DNA of 33,136 nucleotides, taken from the NCBI GenBank assembly GCA_013791935.1, contig VMSV01000107.1:1-33136 (forward strand), given 5' to 3'. Of the stretch, positions 9,899 through 22,069 are shown piece after piece. The translations under genes and the position numbers were made by a program. Source of the DNA: Desulfobacteraceae bacterium. GTDB lineage: Bacteria > Desulfobacterota > Desulfobacteria > Desulfobacterales > UBA5616. The notes under the pieces were generated by a model. It was not told the DNA's origin and ran no database searches. It was given only the letters and a program-made list of their open reading frames with translations. Every line of letters starts with the position of its first letter. Positions within the stretch are counted from its first letter, which is position 1.

Positions 9899-9969
9899 TT
9901 TCTGACTCCTAAATGACTTCGTGATTTTGTGTTTCAGATTTGGAAACAGGGTTTAGATAAATTTGAATA

Positions 9970-9997
9970 ATTATGGGTTCAAAACCTGAATTGTCAA
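9970..9997 (-). promoter_or_regulatory. sigma-70-like promoter of htpG
   Basis: On the minus strand TTGACA (perfect -35) is followed after 16 bp by CATAAT (5 of 6 to the -10 consensus). The leader to the htpG ATG is roughly 65 nt. Confidence 0.6.
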
Positions 9998-10029
9998 GGT
10001 TGGCCGCTAAAGTAATCGAGATTAAAGTC

Positions 10030-10042
10030 GATAACAATTATC
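10030..10042. promoter_or_regulatory. GATAA-N3-TTATC dyad, possible operator
   Basis: A perfect 5-bp inverted repeat with a 3-nt centre (GATAACAATTATC) lies in the divergent region between htpG and the TonB-dependent receptor gene. It resembles half-sites of Fur boxes but matches the 19-bp Fur consensus only in part. Its position about 120 bp before the receptor start would suit a regulator. Confidence 0.3.
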
Positions 10043-10164
10043 AAACAATTAAATAAAACCAACAGGCAATTCCCAGAACGCAGCTTGCTTTATTTCCAGT
10101 AGAATCTCCGCCTTGTTGATTACATTTTATTAAATTTATACATTAACATTGGAGATGGAAGACC

Positions 10165-12204
10165 TTGCATTCGGATAGATCCTTATTCCACTATCTTATA
10201 CAAATTATTTTCCTGATGTGCACTTTTCCCATGACCGGTTTTGCCTATGAGAAATCCAACGACTTCACGGATCTGTCCCTGGAAGCCCTGATGGACATAG
10301 AAATCACTTCAGTTTCCAAAAAGCTTCAAAAACTATCCGAGGCTCCGGCAGCCATTTTTGTAATCACCCATGAGGATTTAAATCGCTCCGGGGCCACCTC
10401 TGTCGCGGAGGCTCTTCGAATGGTTCCCGGGGTACAGGTGGGAAGAATTGACGCCAATAAATGGGCCATCGGCATTCGAGGGCTCAACGGACGTTTTTCC
10501 AATAAACTACTGGTTCTCGTGGACGGTCGAACAGTTTATACCCCCATATACTCGGGCGTTTTCTGGGAAATCCAGGATATGATCCTTGATGATGTGGAAC
10601 GGATTGAAGTGATCCGGGGGCCGGGAGCCGCCATATGGGGATCCAACGCCGTCAACGGTGTGATCAACATTATTTCAAAAAGCGCTTTTGAAACCCAAGG
10701 CGGATATGCGGAAGTCCTGTCCGGTAATGCCGATCCCGTCAATACGTCCGTGCGGTACGGCGGTCGTTTCAATGAAAACAATACAGCCTACCGAATTTAC
10801 GCTAAATATTTCGAACAGAATAGCAATGTTTACAAAGATACGGACACCGATGCCTATGATCAGTGGGATATGTTTAGAACCGGATTTAAGATCAATCATC
10901 AAAACCAGGATACTATCCAGTACGGGTTGCAAGGGGAAATTTTCAAAGGCAAGGCCGGGGAAACCCTTATGGATTCGCAATTGACCGATACCATCCCTTA
11001 CGCGGATATTTCTTTGAGAAACTATAATACCGACCATTTCGGTGGGAATTTGATGTTTAACTGGAAAAGGCAACTCTCCTCAGGATCGGATTTCGCATTT
11101 CAGTGTTATTACGATACCGCCCACTATAATCCCCTGGTGGCGGATGTTTCAGTGGATACATTGGATTTTTCCTTCCAGCATCGGTTTCTGCCGACCCGGA
11201 GCCAGGAACTGGTCTGGGGGGGAGGGTACCGCAATATCCAGGATAAAATCGATGCCTTTATGTTTGCAACGGTTTCCCAAAAAAATGCCAGTTACGATTT
11301 AACCAATTTCTTTGTTCAGGATGATATTTCATTACTGGATGAACGGGTCCACCTGGTTTTGGGTTCCCTGATTGAGAATAACAGTTTTACCGGATGGGAA
11401 TTCCAGCCCAGCCTTCGAACCATCTGGCAGGCCAATCCGTCCAATTCCTTTTGGGCAGCCGTATCCAGGGCCATTCGGAGCGTATCCAGATTGGAGCGAG
11501 GGGCCTCCATTTCCTACGCCATTCCCAATGCTGATCTCCCCATGTTAGGGTCCGCCATTATGGACCCCCATATGGATTCAGAAAAGATGCTGGCCTATGA
11601 AGTGGGGCACAGATCCTGGCTTGGAAACAAGGTTTCCATGGATTCCACGGTGTTTCTGCATGACTATGACAAGTTAAGGGGATCCTACAATGGAACACCC
11701 TATTTTGATATGGAAAAAGGGTCGATGATCATCCCCTTTTATGCCAGCAATTCCATCCAAGGCCGAATCTGGGGTTTTGAAGGAGCCATGGACTGGAAGC
11801 CCAAGAATATATTGATGTTCAAGATCGCCTATACCTTCAGGAAAACGAGCCTGAAGTACCGGGATGGATCCATTCCCGATACGGGGATTCAAGGCTCACC
11901 CCAATATGAACAAAACAAGGACCCCGAGCACACCCTGTCTCTCTCCGCAAGGTTCGATTTTACGGAAAAAGTTAAGCTGGACCTCTGGGGAAGATATGTT
12001 TCAGACCTTCCTTCTTTTGATATTGACGCTTACTGGGAAATGGATACCGTCCTTCGATGGCAGGTCAAGCCGGGACTGGAGCTCCGGCTTGTGGGCCAGA
12101 ATCTGCTGAACAAACATCATCCCGAATATATATCGGAATACTTGAATACGCTTCCCACGGAAAGTGAACGAAAAGGCTACATGGCGGTTTCCTATAAATT
12201 CTAA
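10165..12204 (+). CDS. TonB-dependent outer-membrane receptor
   Basis: A 679-residue outer-membrane gated channel or receptor. The TTG at 10165 is taken as start because GGAG (10151-10154) lies about 10 nt upstream and because it gives a complete signal peptide (hydrophobic ~10-23, cleavage near the FAYEK segment). A TonB-box-like stretch, MDIEITSVSKK, occupies residues 43-53. The plug domain (about 57-172) contains ATSVAEALRMVPGVQV, IRGLNGRFSNKLLVLVDGRTVY and the signature VERIEVIRGPGAAIWGSNAVNGVINI. The rest is a 22-strand-type barrel ending in VSYKF with the expected C-terminal Phe. The ligand is unknown. No tonB/exbBD and no ABC importer lie nearby. Its neighbour, 9 bp away, is a sensor kinase, so a sensing role is possible in addition to uptake. 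Confidence 0.93.
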   Translation: MHSDRSLFHYLIQIIFLMCTFPMTGFAYEKSNDFTDLSLEALMDIEITSVSKKLQKLSEAPAAIFVITHEDLNRSGATSVAEALRMVPGVQVGRIDANKWAIGIRGLNGRFSNKLLVLVDGRTVYTPIYSGVFWEIQDMILDDVERIEVIRGPGAAIWGSNAVNGVINIISKSAFETQGGYAEVLSGNADPVNTSVRYGGRFNENNTAYRIYAKYFEQNSNVYKDTDTDAYDQWDMFRTGFKINHQNQDTIQYGLQGEIFKGKAGETLMDSQLTDTIPYADISLRNYNTDHFGGNLMFNWKRQLSSGSDFAFQCYYDTAHYNPLVADVSVDTLDFSFQHRFLPTRSQELVWGGGYRNIQDKIDAFMFATVSQKNASYDLTNFFVQDDISLLDERVHLVLGSLIENNSFTGWEFQPSLRTIWQANPSNSFWAAVSRAIRSVSRLERGASISYAIPNADLPMLGSAIMDPHMDSEKMLAYEVGHRSWLGNKVSMDSTVFLHDYDKLRGSYNGTPYFDMEKGSMIIPFYASNSIQGRIWGFEGAMDWKPKNILMFKIAYTFRKTSLKYRDGSIPDTGIQGSPQYEQNKDPEHTLSLSARFDFTEKVKLDLWGRYVSDLPSFDIDAYWEMDTVLRWQVKPGLELRLVGQNLLNKHHPEYISEYLNTLPTESERKGYMAVSYKF

Positions 12205-12213
12205 GGCCAAAAG

Positions 12214-13857
12214 ATGATCGTGTCCAAACCGGGAATGAAAAAAACAAGCAAGATTGTCCTGATCCTCCTAATCATTCTGGGAGTTTCAGGATTTAACCAT
12301 TTGGTGAAAGCTGCTGAGAATTCAAGAGAATATGAGGTGAATTCCTACAAGGATATCATGGTTGAAAATATGATGACCATGGCCGAGATTATCGGAACCA
12401 ACATCACATCCTCCCTGGTTTTTAATGATAAGATATCCGCCATGGAAACCCTAAAGTCCTTAAAGGCGGAACAATATATCCTCAACGGGGTCATTTTAAA
12501 TAATAAGGGAGAAGCCTTTGTTTCCTATCATAAAAATTCTGATGGTCAAAATAAACCCATGGAGGAAATTTTCGATCCGGGTATTTTAAATGATCTCAAA
12601 GATCAGGATTTAGCACAACGATTCAATATCCATACTCTGGAACTCCATAGGAAAATCGTCCTGGACGGAGATCGCATCGGAGTCATTGTGATCAAGTCAA
12701 GTCTTGACGGACTCTATGCCAGACTCAAGAATCATATCGTTGCCACAGGGGCCATATTGGCCGTGGTATTCGTGGTCGCTTTTTTCATGTCTTCCCTATT
12801 TCAGAAAATCATCACCGAACCCATCATGAAATTATCCCGTACCATGGACAAGGTGACTTCAGAGGGAGTCTATTCCATTCGGGCCACCAGCCAAAAAGAG
12901 GATGAAATCGGTGAGCTGGTCAGTGGCTTTAACTCCATGCTGAGTAAAATAGAATCCCGGGACAAGCAGTTGGCTGAAAACCGTCTGGAACTGGAAGAAA
13001 GGGTGGATCAGAGAACCTTAGAATTAAAAAATGCCAACCGGAATCTTGAGGACATGGTGGAAAATCTTGCCAGAGCAAAAAACGTAGCCGAGGAGGCAAG
13101 CAGAACCAAAAGTGATTTTCTGGCAAATATGAGCCATGAGCTGAGGACACCTTTGAACCATATCATCGGGTTTACAGAGCTCGTCATGGAACACAGTTTC
13201 GGGGATCTCAATGAAATTCAGAGGGAATACCTGGGGGATGTGCTTCATAGCAGCAGACATCTTCTTTCCCTGATCAATGATATTCTGGACCTCGCCAAGG
13301 TTGAATCCGGCAAACTCGAACTTCATATTTCAAATATTCATTTACCGATGATGCTTGAGGGAAGCCTCAACATGGTCAGGGAAGCCTCACTTAAAAACAG
13401 CATTCAACTTCTTTTGGATATCGAAAACATTCCGACCAACGTCATGGCGGATGAACGGAAATTGAAGCAAATTATTTTCAATTTGCTTTCCAATGCAGTT
13501 AAATTTACCCCCAAAGGAGGAACGGTTACCCTTTCTGCGGGGATATTAAATGGAAAAAGTTCTCATGAAACAATGGTTTTAAATGAACAAACCCCTCAGG
13601 TCATGAAAATATCAGTGTCTGATACAGGCATAGGGATTGAGGAGGAGGACCTTGACCGTATTTTTAATGCTTTTGAACAAGTTGAAAACTCCCGAAGCCG
13701 AAAATACCAGGGCACGGGGCTTGGACTTTCACTCACCAAACGGCTGGTTGAGCTTCATGGTGGAAAGATTTGGGCTGAAAGCCGAGGGATGAATCTCGGC
13801 ACGATCATAAGCTTTACCCTACCGACAGAAGAGATTTTTGCATCTTTTGAAGGATAA
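12214..13857 (+). CDS. membrane sensor histidine kinase, CHASE8-like/HAMP/HisKA/HATPase
   Basis: A 547-residue inner-membrane kinase. TM1 spans about 14-32 and TM2 about 174-196. They enclose a ~140-residue periplasmic domain (SYKDIMVENMMTMAEIIG near 44-61, LDGDRIGVIVIKSSLDGLY near 150-168) that resembles CHASE8, the sensor of YfiN/TpbB. That assignment is by pattern recognition. A HAMP domain (~194-248), a coiled coil, then HisKA follow, with phospho-acceptor His308 in SHELRTPLNH. The HATPase has a complete N box (NLLSNAVKF), G1 (DTGIGI) and G2 (GTGLGL). There is no receiver domain, so phosphate must pass to a separate partner, plausibly a receiver encoded just downstream. It starts 9 bp after the receptor stop, with AAGG 7 nt before the ATG, so the two are almost certainly co-transcribed. 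Confidence 0.92.
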   Translation: MIVSKPGMKKTSKIVLILLIILGVSGFNHLVKAAENSREYEVNSYKDIMVENMMTMAEIIGTNITSSLVFNDKISAMETLKSLKAEQYILNGVILNNKGEAFVSYHKNSDGQNKPMEEIFDPGILNDLKDQDLAQRFNIHTLELHRKIVLDGDRIGVIVIKSSLDGLYARLKNHIVATGAILAVVFVVAFFMSSLFQKIITEPIMKLSRTMDKVTSEGVYSIRATSQKEDEIGELVSGFNSMLSKIESRDKQLAENRLELEERVDQRTLELKNANRNLEDMVENLARAKNVAEEASRTKSDFLANMSHELRTPLNHIIGFTELVMEHSFGDLNEIQREYLGDVLHSSRHLLSLINDILDLAKVESGKLELHISNIHLPMMLEGSLNMVREASLKNSIQLLLDIENIPTNVMADERKLKQIIFNLLSNAVKFTPKGGTVTLSAGILNGKSSHETMVLNEQTPQVMKISVSDTGIGIEEEDLDRIFNAFEQVENSRSRKYQGTGLGLSLTKRLVELHGGKIWAESRGMNLGTIISFTLPTEEIFASFEG

Positions 13858-13893
13858 AAATATCAGAATGGATACTTAAAAGAGAGAAAAATA

Positions 13894-15411
13894 ATGGATC
13901 TTGAAATAGCAAAAAAATATGCGGAGGGAACGGGTGCTCCCTTTGCCGATTCCCTGACAGGTTTGTTCAATCATGGATTTTTTCAGATGTATCTGGAAAA
14001 CGAAGTCAATCGATCAAACCGGAGCGGAGACCCCTTCAGCGTTGCGCTTATTGATGTGGATTCATTTAATCAATTCAATAAGACCAACGGACCTTTGGAA
14101 GGGGACAAGCTCCTTCAGAAAACCGCAAGAATTATTCAAGAAAGTATTCGGAAAGTGGATCTGGCTGCACGCTACTCAGGAGATTCTTTTTCGGTTTTCA
14201 TGAACAATGTCGATACCGCGAAAGCCTTGATTTCTGCTGAAAGAATCACTTCCGCCGTGGAGAAAGGTTGTGATTCCAGGACCACAGTAAGCATCGGTTT
14301 GGCCAGTTTCCCGGAAAGTGGCGGTACCCGGCATGAAATCCTTAAAAATGCTTCGGAAGCTTTAATTACTGCGAAATTAAAAGGGAAAAATTCCATTTAT
14401 TGCTACCGGAAAAATGAGGGCGGTGAATCCTCGGAAGAGCAATCCACCTTATTGATTGTTGACGATGACCAGCGGAATTTAAAATTGCTGGAAGCGTTTC
14501 TCATGCCCATGAAATGCAATATCATCAAGGCCAATAGCGGCAGCGATGCTCTCAGTATTGTGAACCGGACCCCTGTGGATCTGCTGCTTCTGGATGTGAT
14601 GATGCCTGAAATGGACGGCTATGAAGTTTGCCGTAGGATCAAAGGCAGTGAAGCCACTAGATTGATCCCCGTGGTTCTGATTACCGCTCTGGATGATATG
14701 GAGGCGAAAATCAAGGGGATTGAGGCCGGGGCGGATGATTTTCTCACCAAACCCCCCAATAAACTGGAGCTGATTGCAAGAACCAAGTCCCTGTTAAAAT
14801 TGAAAAAACTAAACGATAATCTCACCAGCATCGAGTACGTGCTTTTTTCAATGGCCAATGCGGTTGAAGAAAAGGACATCTACACCCAGGGCCATGTAAA
14901 AAGGGTTTCAGGAATGGCGGTCACCATCGGAAGAAAAATGGGTTTGAGTGAAATGGATATGAGGTCCCTTAAGATCGGCGGTGCCCTTCACGATATCGGA
15001 AAAATCGGCGTTCCCAATGAAATATTAAATAAACCCGGGCCATTAACTGATGAGGAGTGGGAGATCATGAAGAAACACCCCTCTGCCGGTTACCAGATCT
15101 GCCTGCCCCTTAAAAAAAACCTGGGCCCGGCTCTGGATGTGATCCGGCAACACCATGAAAAACTGGATGGATCGGGCTATCCTGATGGTCTGATGGAAAA
15201 GGACATCTCCATAGTGGCGAGAATCATGGCGGTTGCAGATATTTTTGATGCCCTGGCAACGGACAGGCCCTATAGAAAAGCCATGCCTGTAGCCAAAGCC
15301 CTTGATATCCTCAAGCAGGAATCAAACGGCAACAAACTGGATAAAAGTGTGGTTGAACACCTGATTCAAATTGTTGGTTCAGACAATGTGGAATCAAATG
15401 AAAGTTTTTGA
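13894..15411 (+). CDS. degenerate GGDEF - receiver - HD-GYP c-di-GMP phosphodiesterase
   Basis: A 505-residue soluble response regulator. Residues ~15-172 form a GGDEF-type domain (DSLTGLFNHGFF, ALIDVDSFNQFN), but the active-site loop reads SGDSF (95-99) instead of GGDEF. Cyclase activity is therefore unlikely. Residues ~185-305 form a receiver with Asp234 in LLLDVMMPEMDG and a KPP lysine loop. Residues ~315-500 form an HD-GYP domain with an intact HDIGK (His366, Asp367), HHEKLDGSGYPDG and ADIFDALATDRPY. This predicts hydrolysis of c-di-GMP. The order GGDEF-REC-HD-GYP is uncommon; REC is usually N-terminal. The degenerate GGDEF may bind GTP or c-di-GMP as an allosteric input (inference). The gene starts 36 bp after the upstream kinase. 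Confidence 0.9.
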   Translation: MDLEIAKKYAEGTGAPFADSLTGLFNHGFFQMYLENEVNRSNRSGDPFSVALIDVDSFNQFNKTNGPLEGDKLLQKTARIIQESIRKVDLAARYSGDSFSVFMNNVDTAKALISAERITSAVEKGCDSRTTVSIGLASFPESGGTRHEILKNASEALITAKLKGKNSIYCYRKNEGGESSEEQSTLLIVDDDQRNLKLLEAFLMPMKCNIIKANSGSDALSIVNRTPVDLLLLDVMMPEMDGYEVCRRIKGSEATRLIPVVLITALDDMEAKIKGIEAGADDFLTKPPNKLELIARTKSLLKLKKLNDNLTSIEYVLFSMANAVEEKDIYTQGHVKRVSGMAVTIGRKMGLSEMDMRSLKIGGALHDIGKIGVPNEILNKPGPLTDEEWEIMKKHPSAGYQICLPLKKNLGPALDVIRQHHEKLDGSGYPDGLMEKDISIVARIMAVADIFDALATDRPYRKAMPVAKALDILKQESNGNKLDKSVVEHLIQIVGSDNVESNESF

Positions 15412-15424
15412 GACGGAGCGGAAA

Positions 15425-15796
15425 ATGAACAAAAAAACCATTTTGGTTGTGGAAGATAATGAACTGAATATGAAGCTTCTTCGGGGCCTTCTGAAGATAT
15501 CCAATTATACAATGCTCGAAGCCTTTAATGCGGAAACAGGCATTGAAACCGCAAGAAAATTTAAGCCCGATCTGATCTTAATGGATATTCAACTTCCGGG
15601 AATGGATGGTCTGGAAGCCACAAAGGTCATCAAGCAAAATGACGAACTGAAAAATATTCCCGTGATCGCCTTGACGTCCTATGCCATGCACGGAGACAAG
15701 GACAAAGCCTTTGAGGCAGGCTGCACGGATTATATTACCAAACCCATCAACACCAAGGGCTTGATAGAGACCCTTAATAAGTTCTTTGCAGCTTAG
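15425..15796 (+). CDS. stand-alone CheY/DivK-like receiver
   Basis: A single receiver domain of 123 residues. The acidic pocket is VVEDN (9-11), the phospho-acceptor is Asp54 in LILMDIQLPGMDG, and the switch Thr and Lys lie in ALTSYA and YITKPI. There is no output domain, so it should act through protein contacts or as a phosphate shuttle, like DivK or Spo0F. The ATG at 15425 is preferred over an upstream in-frame start at 15371. The latter would overlap the HD-GYP gene by 41 bp, whereas GGAGCGG lies just before 15425. The gap to the upstream gene is 13 bp. Confidence 0.88.
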   Translation: MNKKTILVVEDNELNMKLLRGLLKISNYTMLEAFNAETGIETARKFKPDLILMDIQLPGMDGLEATKVIKQNDELKNIPVIALTSYAMHGDKDKAFEAGCTDYITKPINTKGLIETLNKFFAA

Positions 15797-15827
15797 TTTC
15801 AACTTTTTTTGAAAGAAGGTTTTTAAA

Positions 15828-17147
15828 ATGAATAAACTTAAAATCCTGGTGGTTGATGATGATCCGTTGAATGTTAAGCTGCTTGCAGCCATGCTTCCCT
15901 CGGATCGGTATGATAAAATTCTTGCCTATGGAGGTTTGGAAACCTTGGAAAAGGTGGAATCAGAGGCACCGGATCTTATTCTGCTGGATATCATGATGCC
16001 GGACCTGGACGGGTATGAAGTTGTGGAAATTTTAAAAAGCGATGACCGTTACAGGGATATTCCGATTGTTCTGGTTACGGCCCTTGACGGTATGGAAAAT
16101 AAAATTAAGGCCATTGAATGCGGTGCGGATGAATTCATCAATAAACCCATCCATGTCAAGGAATTGCTGGCAAGGGTTGAATCCCTGCTTAAGTTAAAAA
16201 CATACCAGAATCAACTTCGAGCATCCATGTTGATTGAAGCTGCCGGAGAATCTGTTTTACAGGGACAGGGTCCCCCAGTGAATTTCCCCCTTAATCTGCC
16301 CTCCATTCTCATCGTCGAAGATGATGAAAAGGATGCGAAATTAATCCGTTCCATGCTAAATGGTGAACCCTACCAGTTCAAAACTGTGAAAACAGGCGAA
16401 GAAGCCATAGAGTTCACCTATCTTGGGAAAATTGACGTGATACTGTTGGACATTCTTTTACCGGGTTTGGATGGTTTTCAGGTTTGCAGGTTTCTGAAAG
16501 AAAAGGATTCCACAAAGAATATTCAGGTGGTGGCCATGACCAATCTCATGGACCTGGAAAGCAAGATTAGAGGAATCAATTTTGGCGTGGATGAATACTT
16601 GGTGAAGCCCATCAATCGGTATGAACTGAAAATGCGGATCAAAGCCATGATTAAAAAGAAGGCTTACTTGGACAGCTTGAAAATGGCAAAATATCAGGGG
16701 GCTTCAGGTCTTGTGGAAGATCCTGAGACAGGACTGTACTCCCGGGAATACTTTCACCATTTTTTTAACCTGGAAACCCGTCGATGCAACCGGCAGAATA
16801 CATCCATGTGTTTTCTGCTGTTTGAAATTCCATGGCAAAAACTGAGCCAAACTTCCGACCCGTCTGTTTCGAAAACCGCTACAAAAATGATCGGGGAAGT
16901 TATTAAAAAAAATATTCGGGATGTAGATTTTGCAGCCTATTTTCATCCCGGGAAATTCGCTGTTTTATTGATCAATTCGGATTTGTATGGAGCCAATAAG
17001 GCCGGGGAACGCATCCAAAGAGGCATTGAAAGCTTTTCCGGAACATGGGAAACTATTGCGGGCCCTTTGAAAGTGGATTTCAATGCGGCTGTCTATCCGG
17101 GTGAGCCTGACAAGGTAACGGCACTATCCCTCAAACTTTGTGATTAG
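15828..17147 (+). CDS. PleD-like double receiver with degenerate GGDEF domain
   Basis: A 439-residue soluble response regulator. REC1 (about 5-124) has phospho-acceptor Asp54 in LILLDIMMPDLDG. REC2 (about 159-278) has Asp208 in VILLDILLPGLDG. Both keep the Thr/Lys switch region. The C-terminal ~150 residues align with a GGDEF fold by start (DPETGLYSREYFHHFF) and by the DVDFAAYF stretch. The active-site loop, however, reads HPGKF (373-377), and the Mg-binding positions of the first motif are lost (FEIPWQKL). It therefore resembles PleD in layout but should not make c-di-GMP. It may act as a scaffold or effector (inference). It starts 31 bp after the single receiver. Confidence 0.88.
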   Translation: MNKLKILVVDDDPLNVKLLAAMLPSDRYDKILAYGGLETLEKVESEAPDLILLDIMMPDLDGYEVVEILKSDDRYRDIPIVLVTALDGMENKIKAIECGADEFINKPIHVKELLARVESLLKLKTYQNQLRASMLIEAAGESVLQGQGPPVNFPLNLPSILIVEDDEKDAKLIRSMLNGEPYQFKTVKTGEEAIEFTYLGKIDVILLDILLPGLDGFQVCRFLKEKDSTKNIQVVAMTNLMDLESKIRGINFGVDEYLVKPINRYELKMRIKAMIKKKAYLDSLKMAKYQGASGLVEDPETGLYSREYFHHFFNLETRRCNRQNTSMCFLLFEIPWQKLSQTSDPSVSKTATKMIGEVIKKNIRDVDFAAYFHPGKFAVLLINSDLYGANKAGERIQRGIESFSGTWETIAGPLKVDFNAAVYPGEPDKVTALSLKLCD

Positions 17148-17197
17148 AATATGAAACCCCCAAAAATAATAGCTGATTTCAAGAAGGCCGGTACCCG

Positions 17198-18748
17198 ATG
17201 AGCACCGATCATAAAAATTCTCACAGCGCGATGAGTATGGAAGAAACTTTATCGGCTCTGTATCAATGCCAGGAAAAATACAATGCTGTGATGGCCGGTA
17301 TGTTCGAAGGTTACTTTGAAACCGATCTCCAGGGAAACATCATTTTTCTCAATGACGCCTATTGCAAACTTATGAACAAAAGCCCCGAATCCCTATTAAA
17401 CAAAAATTTCAGGGAGGTGGTGATCCCCAACAGTGTTCATAAATTATCCGATGCTTTCGGTGATATCTATAAATCCATGGATTCCCCAAGGGTCTGGGAA
17501 CACAGTTTTTACTACGAAGACGGGCAGTTGAGGGTTTATGAGCTTTCCGTTTCCCTGATAAAGGACAGCTCTCAAACCCCCCGGGGATTCAGAGGCTTTC
17601 TTCGAGATCTGACACCCAGAGAATCTGCAAATCTGCCGGTTCGGGAAAGTGAAGAACGGCTGAAAACCATATTGAATAAAATCAACGCGGGAATACTCAT
17701 CATCGATCCGGTCGCTCACCGTATTGTTTGGGTCAACCCTGCAGCCCTGAGAATGATAGGCTGTGAGAAGGATGAAGTGATCGGAGGGGTTTGTCATCGT
17801 TTTGTCTGCCCGGCCCAAATCGGGGAATGTCCCATCACCGATCTGGGCAAAAAAGTCGAAAATGCGGAAAGAATCCTTATTGATAAACATGGCCATGAAA
17901 TCAATATCATAAAAAGCGTTTTGGAAATTGATTTTAACGGTCGACCCCATCTGTTGGAAAGCTTTATTGATATTTCAGAATTAAAAAAAATGCTCAAAGA
18001 GCTGGAATTATCCAAGAACGCTGCGGAAAACGCCAATCGTACAAAAAGTGAATTTTTGGCCAATATGAGCCATGAACTTCGAACGCCCCTGAATCATATT
18101 ATGGGATTCAGCGAGCTGGTCTTGGATAGCAGTTTTGGACCCTTAAACGATATTCAGAAGGAATATATCACCGATATCCATTCCAGCAGCAAGCATCTGC
18201 TTTCTCTTATCAATGACATCCTTGATTTATCCAAGGTGGAAGCTGGAAAAATGGAGCTGGATGCCTCCACCATTGCCATCAAACGGCTGCTGAAAAACAG
18301 CCTTCTGATGGTAAAGGAACAATCCATGAAGAATGGCATTCAAGTCCACCTGAATATGGATGGAATTCCCGAGACCTTGGTGGCTGATGAACGAAAATTA
18401 AAACAGATCCTATACAATCTTTTATCCAACAGCATAAAATTCACATCCCGTGGCGGGCGAATCGATATTTATGCCTGCACAAAAAACATGGATTCAGGGA
18501 AGTTATCAAAGAAAAGCTTTCTCCAGGTGTCGGTTGCGGACACGGGGGTGGGCATAAAAAACGAAAATCTTGGTCGTATTTTTGAATATTTTGAACAGAT
18601 TGAAAATTCCAGCACCAAAAGACATCAGGGCACCGGTATAGGCCTTGCCTTGACAAGACGTTTGGTTGAACTCCATGGGGGGTTGATATGGGCCGAAAGC
18701 CAAGGGGAAACCAAGGGCACCACGTTTTATTTTACTCTTCCCCTATGA
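17198..18748 (+). CDS. soluble PAS-PAS-HisKA-HATPase sensor kinase
   Basis: A 516-residue cytoplasmic kinase without membrane segments. PAS1 (about 27-140) begins MAGMFEGYFETDLQGNIIFLND. PAS2 (about 152-262) begins ILNKINAGILIIDPVAHRIVWVNPAA and contains three cysteines, Cys199, Cys204 and Cys211 (CHRFVCPAQIGECPITD), a spacing seen in a PAS subtype of sulfate reducers and relatives. A metal or redox role for them is possible but unproven. HisKA has His292 in SHELRTPLNH. The HATPase shows NLLSNSIKF, DTGVGI and GTGIGLAL. There is no receiver domain. The kinase core is very similar to those of the genes at 12214 and 18837, suggesting duplication. It lies 50 bp after the PleD-like gene. Confidence 0.9.
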   Translation: MSTDHKNSHSAMSMEETLSALYQCQEKYNAVMAGMFEGYFETDLQGNIIFLNDAYCKLMNKSPESLLNKNFREVVIPNSVHKLSDAFGDIYKSMDSPRVWEHSFYYEDGQLRVYELSVSLIKDSSQTPRGFRGFLRDLTPRESANLPVRESEERLKTILNKINAGILIIDPVAHRIVWVNPAALRMIGCEKDEVIGGVCHRFVCPAQIGECPITDLGKKVENAERILIDKHGHEINIIKSVLEIDFNGRPHLLESFIDISELKKMLKELELSKNAAENANRTKSEFLANMSHELRTPLNHIMGFSELVLDSSFGPLNDIQKEYITDIHSSSKHLLSLINDILDLSKVEAGKMELDASTIAIKRLLKNSLLMVKEQSMKNGIQVHLNMDGIPETLVADERKLKQILYNLLSNSIKFTSRGGRIDIYACTKNMDSGKLSKKSFLQVSVADTGVGIKNENLGRIFEYFEQIENSSTKRHQGTGIGLALTRRLVELHGGLIWAESQGETKGTTFYFTLPL

Positions 18749-18836
18749 GTGATTAAAGAAAGGATTGCTGTTTCATAATGGAAAAAAACGCCCCCAAAAC
18801 ATTTCCTTTGCCCTAACCCTGAAATTTTATAATTTC

Positions 18837-20207
18837 ATGGGCGGGAAATTAAGATTGAAAACCGCCATTTTCCGGTCGGACATTCCAAGGAAAGAAAAGA
18901 TTAAAAGGCTGATTTTTGCCTATTCCGCATTTGGTGTCATATTGACCATGCTGTTTTTTACCACAGCCTATCTGGTGGATAGAAATTGGGGGATGGCTTC
19001 TTTCGTCATTTTCTGTGCAAGTTTTTATTTTTATATTCTATTTTTTGGATTCCGGAAATTCAGGAATACCGAAAATCTGATCCTGATCAATTCAACGCTT
19101 ATGGGAATACTTTTGCTGTGTGTGCTTATAAAAAGCGCGCCCGATGGATACGTGGCTTTGTGGCTTTATATATTCCCAATTTTTCTTTATCTCATACAGA
19201 ATATGAAACATGCGATGACCCTGAATTTTATTTTCCTGCTGGGAATTTTGGCCATCGTCTCGGCCCAGGATTTCATACCATGGGGAATCCGGTTCGAGAA
19301 TGGATTCAGATTTCGATTTCCCATCACCATTGCCATGGTGATGATGGTTGCTTTTATGATCGAGCTGATCCGCAGCAGATACGAACAACGGATGACCCGG
19401 CAGCAGAAAAAACTCGAAAAGGAAAAAGAAAAACTTGCCATGGCCAAAAATGTCGTGGAACAGACAAGCCGAGCGAAAAGTGATTTTCTTGCCAATATGA
19501 GCCACGAACTCCGAACCCCCCTGAATCACATCATTGGTTTTACTGAACTTGTGGCGGAAAAAGGCGTGGGTGAACTCAACAATATTCAGGAAGAATACCT
19601 GAAAGATGCCCTTCAAAGTGCAAAAAATCTTTTCAATTTGATCAATGATACCCTGGATTTGGCCAAAGCAGATTCAGGACGGATGGATTTTCAGGCATCC
19701 ATGGCGGATATTCGAAACCTGGTGGAAAGCTGTGTTGAAACGATTTCGGAGGATGCGGACAAAAAAAAGATCCGACTCACCTCCGAATTTTCTAATATTC
19801 CCGAGTTGATTCCGGTTGACATGTTTAAAATCAAGAAAGTTTTAAACAACATTCTGTCCAATGCCATCAAATATACTCCCGATGGAGGAGAGGTCCAAAT
19901 TTCCACTGGAATCGCCAAAAATGAAAAGCTACTTGAACTGGGATTACAGGCCTCTCCTAAAGACACTTTTATTGAGATATCCGTCAAAGATAACGGGGTG
20001 GGAATCCGGGAAGAAGACCTGGAACGGATATTAAATCCTTTTGAGCAGGTGGAGGCAGGCATTAGCAGGCGATATTCCGGTACGGGCGTGGGTCTGGCCC
20101 TCGCCCGTCGTTTGGTGGCTCTTCATCACGGAATCATATGGGCAAAAAGCGAGGGTCTGGGCAAAGGTGCTGATTTTCATGTGGTTTTACCCGTAGGTTC
20201 TGCATAA
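18837..20207 (+). CDS. multi-pass membrane sensor histidine kinase
   Basis: About 456 residues from the ATG at 18837. A TTG at 18765 would add 24 residues, but its SD (AGGA) is jammed against the codon. The N-terminal ~180 residues hold about six hydrophobic segments (starting LIFAYSAFGVILTMLFFTTAYL and ending ITIAMVMMVAFMIELI) with no large periplasmic loop, so the ligand is probably sensed within or near the membrane. A short coiled coil leads into HisKA (SHELRTPLNH, His223 from this start). The HATPase has NNILSNAIKY, DNGVGI and GTGVGLAL. There is no receiver domain. It is the last gene of the cluster; the core resembles the two upstream kinases. The start is uncertain (see finding). Confidence 0.85.
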   Translation: MGGKLRLKTAIFRSDIPRKEKIKRLIFAYSAFGVILTMLFFTTAYLVDRNWGMASFVIFCASFYFYILFFGFRKFRNTENLILINSTLMGILLLCVLIKSAPDGYVALWLYIFPIFLYLIQNMKHAMTLNFIFLLGILAIVSAQDFIPWGIRFENGFRFRFPITIAMVMMVAFMIELIRSRYEQRMTRQQKKLEKEKEKLAMAKNVVEQTSRAKSDFLANMSHELRTPLNHIIGFTELVAEKGVGELNNIQEEYLKDALQSAKNLFNLINDTLDLAKADSGRMDFQASMADIRNLVESCVETISEDADKKKIRLTSEFSNIPELIPVDMFKIKKVLNNILSNAIKYTPDGGEVQISTGIAKNEKLLELGLQASPKDTFIEISVKDNGVGIREEDLERILNPFEQVEAGISRRYSGTGVGLALARRLVALHHGIIWAKSEGLGKGADFHVVLPVGSA

Positions 20208-20234
20208 CACCGGCAAAGGATTGAAATCAATCCG

Positions 20235-21977
20235 TCAATCCCGGTCTTCCTTGTCCGAAAGGGCGAGAAGATTTTTCAGAGCGAATTCAAGCCCCGGATC
20301 TATGGAAAGGGCTTTTCGGTAATACTCCACCGCTAAGGCCACATTCCCCATATCCCTGTAATTGGATGCGATGTTAGCGTAATCAATGGCTGAGCCAGGA
20401 TTGAGCCGGATCACCTTTTGAAAGCTTTCGATGGCCGCCTCATGTTCCTTTAATTTAAAGTGGCAGAACCCGATTAGGTTGTAGACATCGGGGCGTTCAT
20501 CATCATATTCACAGGCTTTTTTCAACACATTCAAGGCTTGCCTGTATTTTCCCATATCCCGGTAACAAGTCCCCATATAAGCATAAATACTAGGAATATC
20601 CTCTGCCGTAGGACTCTGTTCCAGGGCATTTGAAAAACAGTCCAGGGCGGAAGACGGGTCATCCAGGGAGACCCTGCAAATCCCCATGTAAAATTTAACG
20701 TAATATTTCCCTGGGATGGCCCGGTCAAAAGCATCCAGTAAAGAAAGGGCTGTGGAGGCCGGCATTTGCTCGGTCATGATTTTTGCCGTAAACAGTCCCA
20801 TGCTTGAACCCATGGATCGTTCCCTGAAATGAGCCCCGGGAATCAAGGTGTAAAAGGCCGGAACCCCCAACAAAGGGTGCGTGGTTTCCAACGCGATCAC
20901 ATCCATGTTTTTCCGGGCCAGCATGGAGATGCAGTTTTCCACTTCTGTTTTAATGTTGTTGCTGGAAATATCCGGAAGATCCTGAAGCCGGATGATTTTT
21001 CCGGGGTTTGTGACATAATCCGCCTCGACCATGTTTCTGAACTTGGGAAGGCCGCTGGCCACATAATTGGCCCCGGTGTTAAAATCACCGGCAAGCTGGG
21101 CTACTTCGGTTAAGGCCCTGCTCAATGCTTTTTCAGGACCGGGGGTGGTACCTGCCGTCCACACGATTTCACTTTTTTCAGGAAACGTGGACGGGTCATG
21201 GGCCAGAATACCCACGGTGGGAATCCCCGTGTCCAGACTGAAATCGGAAATATACAGATTGATTCCCGCCTGGTTGTATTTTGCCAGCATGTCTTTAACC
21301 ATGGGATCCGTGGCGGATTCCGGACTGATGAGGGGTGTTTTCAGCCGATTTCTGCTGATCAGGGCGCAAACATGGCGTTCCACCACTTCACAAATACCCT
21401 GGCACAAAGCCTCCTCAACGCAGTTTCCGGCGGAGGTCCCATTGAATTCATTGATGGTGTAAAACCAGTCAAAGGGAATGAGCATGGATTGTTCCCGGGT
21501 TAGATTGTATGCCCGGGTCCAGTTGAGATGGAGCTTTTCAAAAAATGGCCTGACCTTCTCACCATCTCCGGATTCATCGTGAACCGATTTTGAAATCAGG
21601 TCATAGGGCATGGCATTTTTATGAACTTTTTCATAGGGGGCGGTTTGAAAATGATCCGGATTATTCCTGAAACTGAAAAAGCTGAATCGCTCGGCAAGCT
21701 CTATGGTGGCGCTGGCCTCGGCCTGCTCCGGGGTTGCGCCTTTCCCCATCTGCTTTTTTGTGCCGGTAAGGGCTGCGGCGTCTTTTCCGCATACACTGAA
21801 AAATACAGGGATTCCAAGTCTTTGGTTGTCGATACGCTGGGTGTAAGCAAGGATATCCAGATTCACCTGCTTGATTTTATCTCTGAATTTCAACAGAGTC
21901 TCCGCAGGGGAAATGATTTTATCCTGGTCTAAAGTAAAACCCTTGTAAACATCGGTGAGCGTTATTTTATCAGTCAT
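20235..21977 (-). CDS. ycaO: YcaO-domain protein with C-terminal TPR repeats
   Basis: About 580 residues from the ATG at 21977. A GTG at 21989 is an alternative; neither has a good SD. The N-terminal ~380 residues form a YcaO ATP-binding domain, with ATP-contact motifs SATIELAER (near 89-97), EEALCQGICEVVER (near 188-201) and RALTEVAQ. The C-terminal ~170 residues are TPR-like repeats (YAYMGTCYRDMGKYRQAL, YNLIGFCHFKLKEHEAAI, YANIASNYRDMGNVALAV). There is no PxPxP C-terminus as in azoline-forming cyclodehydratases. No precursor peptide, E1-like partner, TfuA or dehydrogenase lies nearby. Size and layout match E. coli YcaO, implicated in beta-methylthiolation of ribosomal protein S12. That function is plausible here but not shown. 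The gene is monocistronic, convergent with the signalling cluster. Confidence 0.86.
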   Translation of the reverse strand: MTDKITLTDVYKGFTLDQDKIISPAETLLKFRDKIKQVNLDILAYTQRIDNQRLGIPVFFSVCGKDAAALTGTKKQMGKGATPEQAEASATIELAERFSFFSFRNNPDHFQTAPYEKVHKNAMPYDLISKSVHDESGDGEKVRPFFEKLHLNWTRAYNLTREQSMLIPFDWFYTINEFNGTSAGNCVEEALCQGICEVVERHVCALISRNRLKTPLISPESATDPMVKDMLAKYNQAGINLYISDFSLDTGIPTVGILAHDPSTFPEKSEIVWTAGTTPGPEKALSRALTEVAQLAGDFNTGANYVASGLPKFRNMVEADYVTNPGKIIRLQDLPDISSNNIKTEVENCISMLARKNMDVIALETTHPLLGVPAFYTLIPGAHFRERSMGSSMGLFTAKIMTEQMPASTALSLLDAFDRAIPGKYYVKFYMGICRVSLDDPSSALDCFSNALEQSPTAEDIPSIYAYMGTCYRDMGKYRQALNVLKKACEYDDERPDVYNLIGFCHFKLKEHEAAIESFQKVIRLNPGSAIDYANIASNYRDMGNVALAVEYYRKALSIDPGLEFALKNLLALSDKEDRD

Positions 21978-22069
21978 TTTTTTATTCACTTTTAAGTAAG
22001 TTTTATTTGTGGTTCATGTAGAAAGCTGCTAATACATTGCTCCAAATTTTAAAACAAGGTCTTTTTGTT

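Follow-up and report, generated by a model that had tools for sequence, protein, structure and literature searches.

A GGDEF-REC-HD-GYP family with a degenerate cyclase loop and a retained I-site: a possible c-di-GMP-sensing phosphodiesterase

The window, i.e., the whole stretch of 33,136 nucleotides that was analysed, holds seven co-directional genes between 10165 and 20207, with gaps of 9, 36, 13, 31, 50 and 16 nt. These genes, with the domains and sites of the third one, are the following.

10165..12204, + strand: TonB-dependent receptor (PF00593 and PF07715), 9 nt before the kinase gene
12214..13857, + strand: CHASE8-HAMP-HisKA-HATPase sensor kinase (Pfam), 36 nt before the 13894-15411 gene
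13894..15411, + strand: GGDEF*-REC-HD-GYP protein, 505 aa, ATG start, 0 internal stops
13945..14391, + strand: degenerate GGDEF domain (GGDEF*), residues 18-166 (PF00990, E 4.1e-33)
14011..14013, + strand: Arg40 = PleD R313, secondary I-site; Arg in 19/22 family members
14149..14160, + strand: Arg86-x-x-Asp89 = PleD R359xxD362, primary I-site; 22/22 family members
14176..14190, + strand: SGDSF loop replacing GG(D/E)EF, Ser98 at PleD E371 (alignment to PleD)
14242..14244, + strand: Arg117 = PleD R390, I-site; Arg in 21/22 family members
14452..14781, + strand: receiver domain (REC; Response_reg), residues 187-296 (PF00072, E 5e-27), phospho-acceptor Asp234
14851..15351, + strand: HD-GYP domain (HD_5), residues 320-486 (PF13487, E 1.3e-40)
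15425..15796, + strand: stand-alone receiver protein, ATG at 15425 (Pfam)
15828..17147, + strand: REC-REC-GGDEF* protein, loop HPGKF (Pfam)
17198..18748, + strand: PAS-PAS histidine kinase (Pfam)
18765..20207, + strand: histidine kinase, N-terminus in the membrane and MASE6-like (21.9 bits; the Pfam cut-off, 27.4, is not reached)

Terminator-like sites in 9900-20300 are no commoner than in shuffles (10 found vs. a mean of 12.0), thus the spacing suggests a single operon. On the opposite strand, 20235-21989 (-) encodes a 584-aa protein that resembles, by eye, a YcaO-type domain followed by TPR repeats.

The domain order read by the initial annotation in the 13894-15411 protein, i.e., N-terminal GGDEF-type domain, middle REC and C-terminal HD-GYP, agrees with the Pfam coordinates. 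The motifs that it had listed are also found: (i) the loop reads RYSGDSF (residues 93-99), its fourth motif residue, at the position of the catalytic Glu, being Ser98; (ii) HDIGK lies at 366-370 and the GYP motif in HHEKLDGSGYP at 420-430; (iii) Asp234 is the phospho-acceptor of the receiver, accompanied by Asp190/191, Thr264 and Lys286. Chance or a misread frame is ruled out by the ORF itself, by the Pfam domains and by recurrence in related genomes. Matches to solved structures fall domain by domain: PleD is the top one overall, with the receiver as its best stretch, the HD-GYP enzyme 4mcw matches the C-terminal part, and several cyclases, 6d9m first, match the GGDEF domain. The AlphaFold2 model (shallow alignment, mean pLDDT 72.6, pTM 0.50) is informative for REC and HD-GYP only; most of GGDEF* has a pLDDT below 50 and the domain arrangement is not shown by the model.

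A search for the GGDEF-REC-HD-GYP order, suggested as a check by the initial annotation, showed that it recurs. At least 22 copies with all three domains are present in 21 genomes of the phylum, this protein included. The 21 further proteins have 46-62% identity to it over the matched part; in G064 a contig end truncates it at residue 27. Three overlapping genome searches were made, and both profile searches scored three candidates per genome, so that copy counts are lower bounds. In the protein search, a match with all three domains was obtained in 11 of 96 genomes (own genome and G064 included), plus one additional copy limited to the C-terminal half at a contig end; 26/96 genomes match at E <= 1e-60, those without the three domains matching the REC-HD-GYP half only. 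The profile search of 395 genomes sampled evenly across the phylum gave all three domains in at least 6 (16 match at E <= 1e-110, the other 10 being REC-HD-GYP only), and that of 389 genomes of the order in at least 17 (18 at E <= 1e-160, one partial). It must be noticed that one genome, G593, carries two such loci (L188, L189).

Outside these searches, named genomes were scanned with six short peptide patterns; among the matches listed, from which near genomes may be absent, 80 loci were kept, with 35 HD-GYP ORFs recognised by motif. Of the latter, 25 match the REC-HD-GYP half (L060 by part of REC only), 7 are GGDEF-HD-GYP without REC and 3 are neither. It is thus broadly right, in this sample, that HD-GYP regulators normally begin with REC. 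The description of the order as unusual is supported, GGDEF-REC-HD-GYP occurring in 0/35 of these listed motif-recognised ORFs; within the phylum it is an established family and not a lone oddity. Among the papers listed from the open-access literature (titles and opening parts of abstracts), none describes a GGDEF-REC-HD-GYP protein, and the string GGDEF-REC-HD-GYP itself is absent from the 20 papers listed of 25.

The family alignment has 24 rows, i.e., 22 full copies plus those of G027 and G657, which are partial and begin to match at residue 259 and at about residue 146, respectively. In the G657 copy (L190), GGDEF* is mostly gone, by truncation or frameshift. The receiver has the acidic pair, phospho-Asp, Thr and Lys of a response regulator: D190, D191 and D234 are kept in 23/23 rows with a residue there, T264 in 24/24 and K286 in 23/24. 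The HD metal-site residues and the GYP motif of HD-GYP enzymes are likewise present (H334, H366, D367, K370, H395, H420, H421, D449 and GYP 428-430, 24/24). The domain is thus predicted to hydrolyse c-di-GMP, as the initial annotation had it. Such residues are no guarantee of hydrolysis: in the available parts of the papers, DVU1181 showed no c-di-GMP activity (PMC4114195) and DvhD, an HD-GYP-domain protein, acts as a c-di-GMP switch (PMC13090378).

The alignment of residues 17-119 of the 13894-15411 protein to PleD (chain 2wb4) is gapless, the PleD numbers being higher by 273, i.e., S98 = E371, R86 = R359, D89 = D362, R117 = R390, R40 = R313 and N59 = K332. K442 and R446 (residues 161 and 165) were placed after a gapped stretch of this alignment. 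E371 is the catalytic residue of PleD. The dead cyclase loop claimed from the letters is borne out by this alignment, the catalytic Glu being replaced by Ser98 and K332 by Asn59; the GG(D/E)EF with Glu and the K332 of an active cyclase are both lacking. N335, D344, D327, E370 (as D) and K442 are present, R446 is Lys and G368 is Ser. The I-site is complete, with RxxD (R86, D89) and the Arg contacts R117 and R40. I-site roles of R313, R359, D362 and R390 are those given in the available parts of PMC7288161 and PMC12943098, and residue roles in GGDEF domains were also drawn from that of PMC8041772. A Hypr (cGAMP) GGDEF, marked by Ser at PleD D344 (PMC7288161, available part), is ruled out, since D344 is kept as Asp71.

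The family was compared with two controls. The intact control consists of 37 GGDEF domains, taken from 39 loci in seven genomes of the order (9 loci of the own genome and 30 high-scoring loci of six relatives). The degenerate control consists of 22 low-scoring GGDEFs, 20 hand-picked from 132 matches and two of the own genome, several of them from one subfamily; GG(D/E)EF occurs in 0 of the 21 with an alignable loop. Retention of each PleD residue is given below for the family, the intact control and the other degenerate domains, in that order.

E371: 2/23 (G657 row doubtful), 37/37, 4/21
K332: 0/22, 37/37, 7/22
G368: 3/22, 37/37, 13/21
G369: 12/22, 37/37, 7/21
R446: 1/23 (Lys in 19), 33/37, 0/4
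D327: 18/22, 37/37, 10/22
N335: 20/22, 37/37, 16/22
D344: 20/21, 37/37, 8/22
E370 as D or E: 20/23, 37/37, 8/21
K442: 22/23, 37/37, 6/9
R359: 22/22, 36/37, 7/22
D362: 22/22, 36/37, 15/21
R390: 21/22, 15/37 (Lys in a further 10), 11/19
R313: 19/22, 29/37, 9/22

The two members with the catalytic Glu are G622 (SGDEF) and G069 (TEDEF). Invariance of RxxD alone is ruled out as proof of a c-di-GMP site, since RxxD is also present in 38/40 intact loops; the loop-degenerate control, R390 and a tree were therefore used instead. (i) Among the other loop-degenerate GGDEFs of the same genomes, R359 and D362 are both kept in 7/21. (ii) Arg at R390 is commoner in the family than in intact domains (21/22 vs. 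15/37, Fisher p 1.9e-5; Arg or Lys, 21/22 vs. 25/37, p 0.02), the control domains not being phylogenetically independent. (iii) In a tree that used only the REC and HD-GYP half, the minimum number of changes is 14 for E371, 12 for G368 and 10 for G369 (median column 9), vs. 0 for R359 and D362 and one for R390; 10/151 GGDEF* columns are unchanged, R359 and D362 among them. In other words, the loop is free to vary and the c-di-GMP I-site is not. In G170 and G338 the guanine contacts N335 and D344 are also lost while all four I-site residues are kept; the remaining 20 members have both contacts. In G011, R390 is replaced by Gly and D327 is also missing.

In the GGDEF* of the downstream 15828-17147 protein, the six A-site residues inspected, D327, K332, N335, D344, E370 and E371, are changed, and R313, R359, D362 and R390 are kept. 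A fused REC-REC-REC-GGDEF protein is encoded near 11/23 related loci, contig ends truncating several loci. Of the 12 such proteins, 8 have the loop GG(D/E)EF and 3 a degenerate one; in 1 the loop is missing. Among the three degenerate partners the I-site quartet is complete in two, and that of G017 has lost R390; the G593a partner has an intact loop and no R390. The 15425-15796 receiver has 52-63% identity to the first REC of 11 of these 12 proteins and 27% to that of the twelfth. The pair 15425-15796 and 15828-17147 is read as a putative split form of the relatives' REC-REC-REC-GGDEF. Some relatives have an extra stand-alone REC beside the fused protein (e.g., G004, G547), so that loss and reuse may also account for the pair. 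As the homologous loop is intact in 8/12 related-locus proteins, the cyclase partner of a cyclase/hydrolase pair has apparently been lost here. One G593 locus (L188/L189) has two REC-REC-REC-GGDEF-type neighbours, one with the degenerate loop SKQTY and one with an intact loop.

Upstream, the 12214-13857 kinase is the only CHASE8 match of its genome and is the probable cognate kinase of the 13894-15411 protein. By BLAST, a YfiR-like gene adjoins the CHASE8 kinase in 5/23 related loci (G017, G054, G011, G386, G547), and a TonB receptor is present at 5/23. Pfam recognised DUF4154 (YfiR) in the 4 such proteins given and CHASE8 in 4 kinases; the fifth kinase (L121) carries dCache and a tenth protein had no match. 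In G054, G011, G386 and G547 the YfiR-like gene lies between the TonB receptor and the CHASE8 kinase. Within the window there is no DUF4154 match; the single one of the genome is on another contig, beside another TonB-like receptor. The TonB receptor and CHASE8 kinase resemble a YfiR/CHASE8 sensing module that has been coupled to a kinase. In the open-access literature, no paper was found on DUF4154 together with a TonB-dependent receptor.

Taken together, these data suggest, with nearly an even chance of being right, that the 13894-15411 protein is a response-regulator phosphodiesterase with two inputs, receiver phosphorylation and c-di-GMP binding at the I-site. The CHASE8 kinase encoded just upstream would phosphorylate Asp234 of the middle receiver. 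The N-terminal pseudo-cyclase would make no c-di-GMP and would bind it at R86xxD89 and R117, R40 being supplied by a neighbouring GGDEF*, either of a homodimer or of the partner protein. Both inputs would move the C-terminal HD-GYP, which would hydrolyse c-di-GMP. The most natural outcome would be a substrate-gated hydrolysis capping the c-di-GMP level; activation by c-di-GMP, and not inhibition, is a guess as to the direction of control. Kinase input to the receiver Asp and an HD-GYP output are usual in their families; what we infer is the c-di-GMP gate.

That GGDEF* is a nucleotide-binding regulator, as proposed initially, is plausible; of the two candidate ligands, c-di-GMP is somewhat better supported by the sequences than GTP. 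In favour of c-di-GMP: (i) RxxD survives where catalysis is gone; (ii) its loss is frequent among the other dead GGDEFs in these genomes; (iii) R390 is more constant in the family than in intact domains; (iv) in G170 and G338 the guanine pocket is gone and the I-site quartet is intact; (v) the partner REC-REC-GGDEF* shows the same pattern, A-site lost and I-site kept. Against it, (i) RxxD is near-universal in intact GGDEFs (R359 and D362, 36/37 each), so that the I-site was retained rather than gained in the family and RxxD could be structural; (ii) most of the GTP site is kept, R446 to Lys being a mild change; (iii) G011 lacks R390, and in DgcR the R390 equivalent is too distant and not used (PMC8041772, available part); (iv) the catalytic Glu is still there in G622 and G069, and an SGDEF cyclase found in nature is active (PMC3974145, available part). 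The DVU1181 and DvhD cases count against the phosphodiesterase part.

The main rival, though an unlikely one, is a GTP sensor: the dead GGDEF* would bind GTP at the old active site and activate the phosphodiesterase, and may do so together with the I-site. The guanine contacts N335 (20/22) and D344 (20/21), the metal ligands D327 (18/22) and E370 (as D, 20/23), and K442 (22/23) are for the most part retained, and R446 is mostly Lys. The phosphate contact at K332 is described as made by the backbone, K332 itself being a transition-state stabiliser (PMC12943098, available part); As K332 and E371 serve catalysis rather than binding, a domain lacking them is less likely to be an active enzyme, while GTP binding is less affected. 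Precedents, with EAL in place of HD-GYP, are CC3396, FimX, PdeB and RbdA (PMC9061725, PMC8846402, PMC7288161) and, in D. vulgaris, the GGDEF-EAL regulator DVU0408, which gives more product with GTP (PMC4114195), all as given in available parts. The GTP sensor is weakened by the loss of K332 in 22/22 and of G368 in 19/22 members, and by G170 and G338, which are without guanine contacts and yet have the I-site.

It is rather improbable that GGDEF* is a docking or dimerisation module whose I-site face touches the receiver or the partner REC-REC-GGDEF and holds no nucleotide. Near 11/23 related loci such a GGDEF partner is indeed encoded, and the degenerate I-site face of Shewanella PdeB is involved in HubP/FimV binding; that face, however, had lost RxxD (GxxE), whereas here the c-di-GMP contacts are kept (PMC9061725, available part). 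An inert relic of a once bifunctional cyclase/phosphodiesterase, of which REC-HD-GYP alone matters, would fit the free variation of the loop and the G657 copy, which matches only from about residue 146; it is very unlikely, the domain being present in 22 copies at 46-62% overall identity with 10/151 columns unchanged on the tree. A (weak) cyclase activity of GGDEF* is scarcely credible, since the natural SGDEF and AGDEF cyclases that can be active (PMC3974145, available part) keep the catalytic Glu, whereas the window has Ser98, and Asn59 at K332; an active cyclase through a tolerated first-position change is ruled out here, both residues being gone, but may exist in G622 (SGDEF).

A wider reading joins the sensing phosphodiesterase to its neighbour, and is doubtful as a whole: a c-di-GMP-gated HD-GYP phosphodiesterase, whose I-site-only pseudo-cyclase would sense its own substrate, c-di-GMP forming a cross-link between it and the I-site of the adjacent REC-REC-(REC-)GGDEF. 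With the intact partner of several relatives this would make a matched cyclase/hydrolase pair; here, the partner being also I-site-only, the operon would hold two c-di-GMP-sensing pseudo-cyclases and a hydrolase, and no cyclase.

Non-catalytic GGDEFs controlling a phosphodiesterase of the same chain are described on EAL enzymes, several of them GTP-responsive (PMC4114195, PMC9061725, PMC8846402, PMC7288161, available parts). What is new here is which GGDEF* residues were lost and which kept across a family: a conserved HD-GYP family has lost K332 and, in all but two members, the catalytic Glu, and never RxxD. The prediction from the family is that c-di-GMP, not GTP, is the ligand and that R86, D89 and R117 are needed. 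If true, it would be a compact substrate-sensing hydrolase under two-component control.

Among known systems, the GGDEF-EAL phosphodiesterases CC3396, FimX, PdeB and RbdA (PMC9061725, PMC8846402, available parts) also have a non-catalytic GGDEF regulating the phosphodiesterase of the same chain and, as in the GTP-responsive ones, the guanine contacts are mostly kept in the present family; they differ by EAL instead of HD-GYP and by the receiver lying in between here, and PdeB has lost the I-site that is kept here (PMC9061725). REC-HD-GYP phosphodiesterases such as the D. vulgaris HD-GYP regulators (PMC4114195, available part) share a phosphorylatable receiver before an HD-GYP with the motif residues, but the 13894-15411 protein has an extra pseudo-cyclase ahead of the receiver. 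PleD (REC-REC-GGDEF) has the same I-site quartet R313/R359/D362/R390 as this protein and its downstream partner; the catalytic Glu is missing here and the order is GGDEF-REC-HD-GYP. In YfiBNR-type signalling, a CHASE8 sensor is carried by a cyclase and acts with YfiR. The CHASE8 sensor is common to both, with a YfiR-like (DUF4154) gene beside the CHASE8 kinase in the five related loci, but here it is borne by a histidine kinase, not a cyclase, and the window locus has no YfiR gene. Finally, degenerate-GGDEF c-di-GMP receptors (PopA, CdgA and others) bind at the I-site or at the old active site (PMC3974145, available part). The 13894-15411 GGDEF* resembles them by its dead catalytic loop, with I-site residues kept, and differs in sharing its chain with a predicted hydrolase of that ligand.
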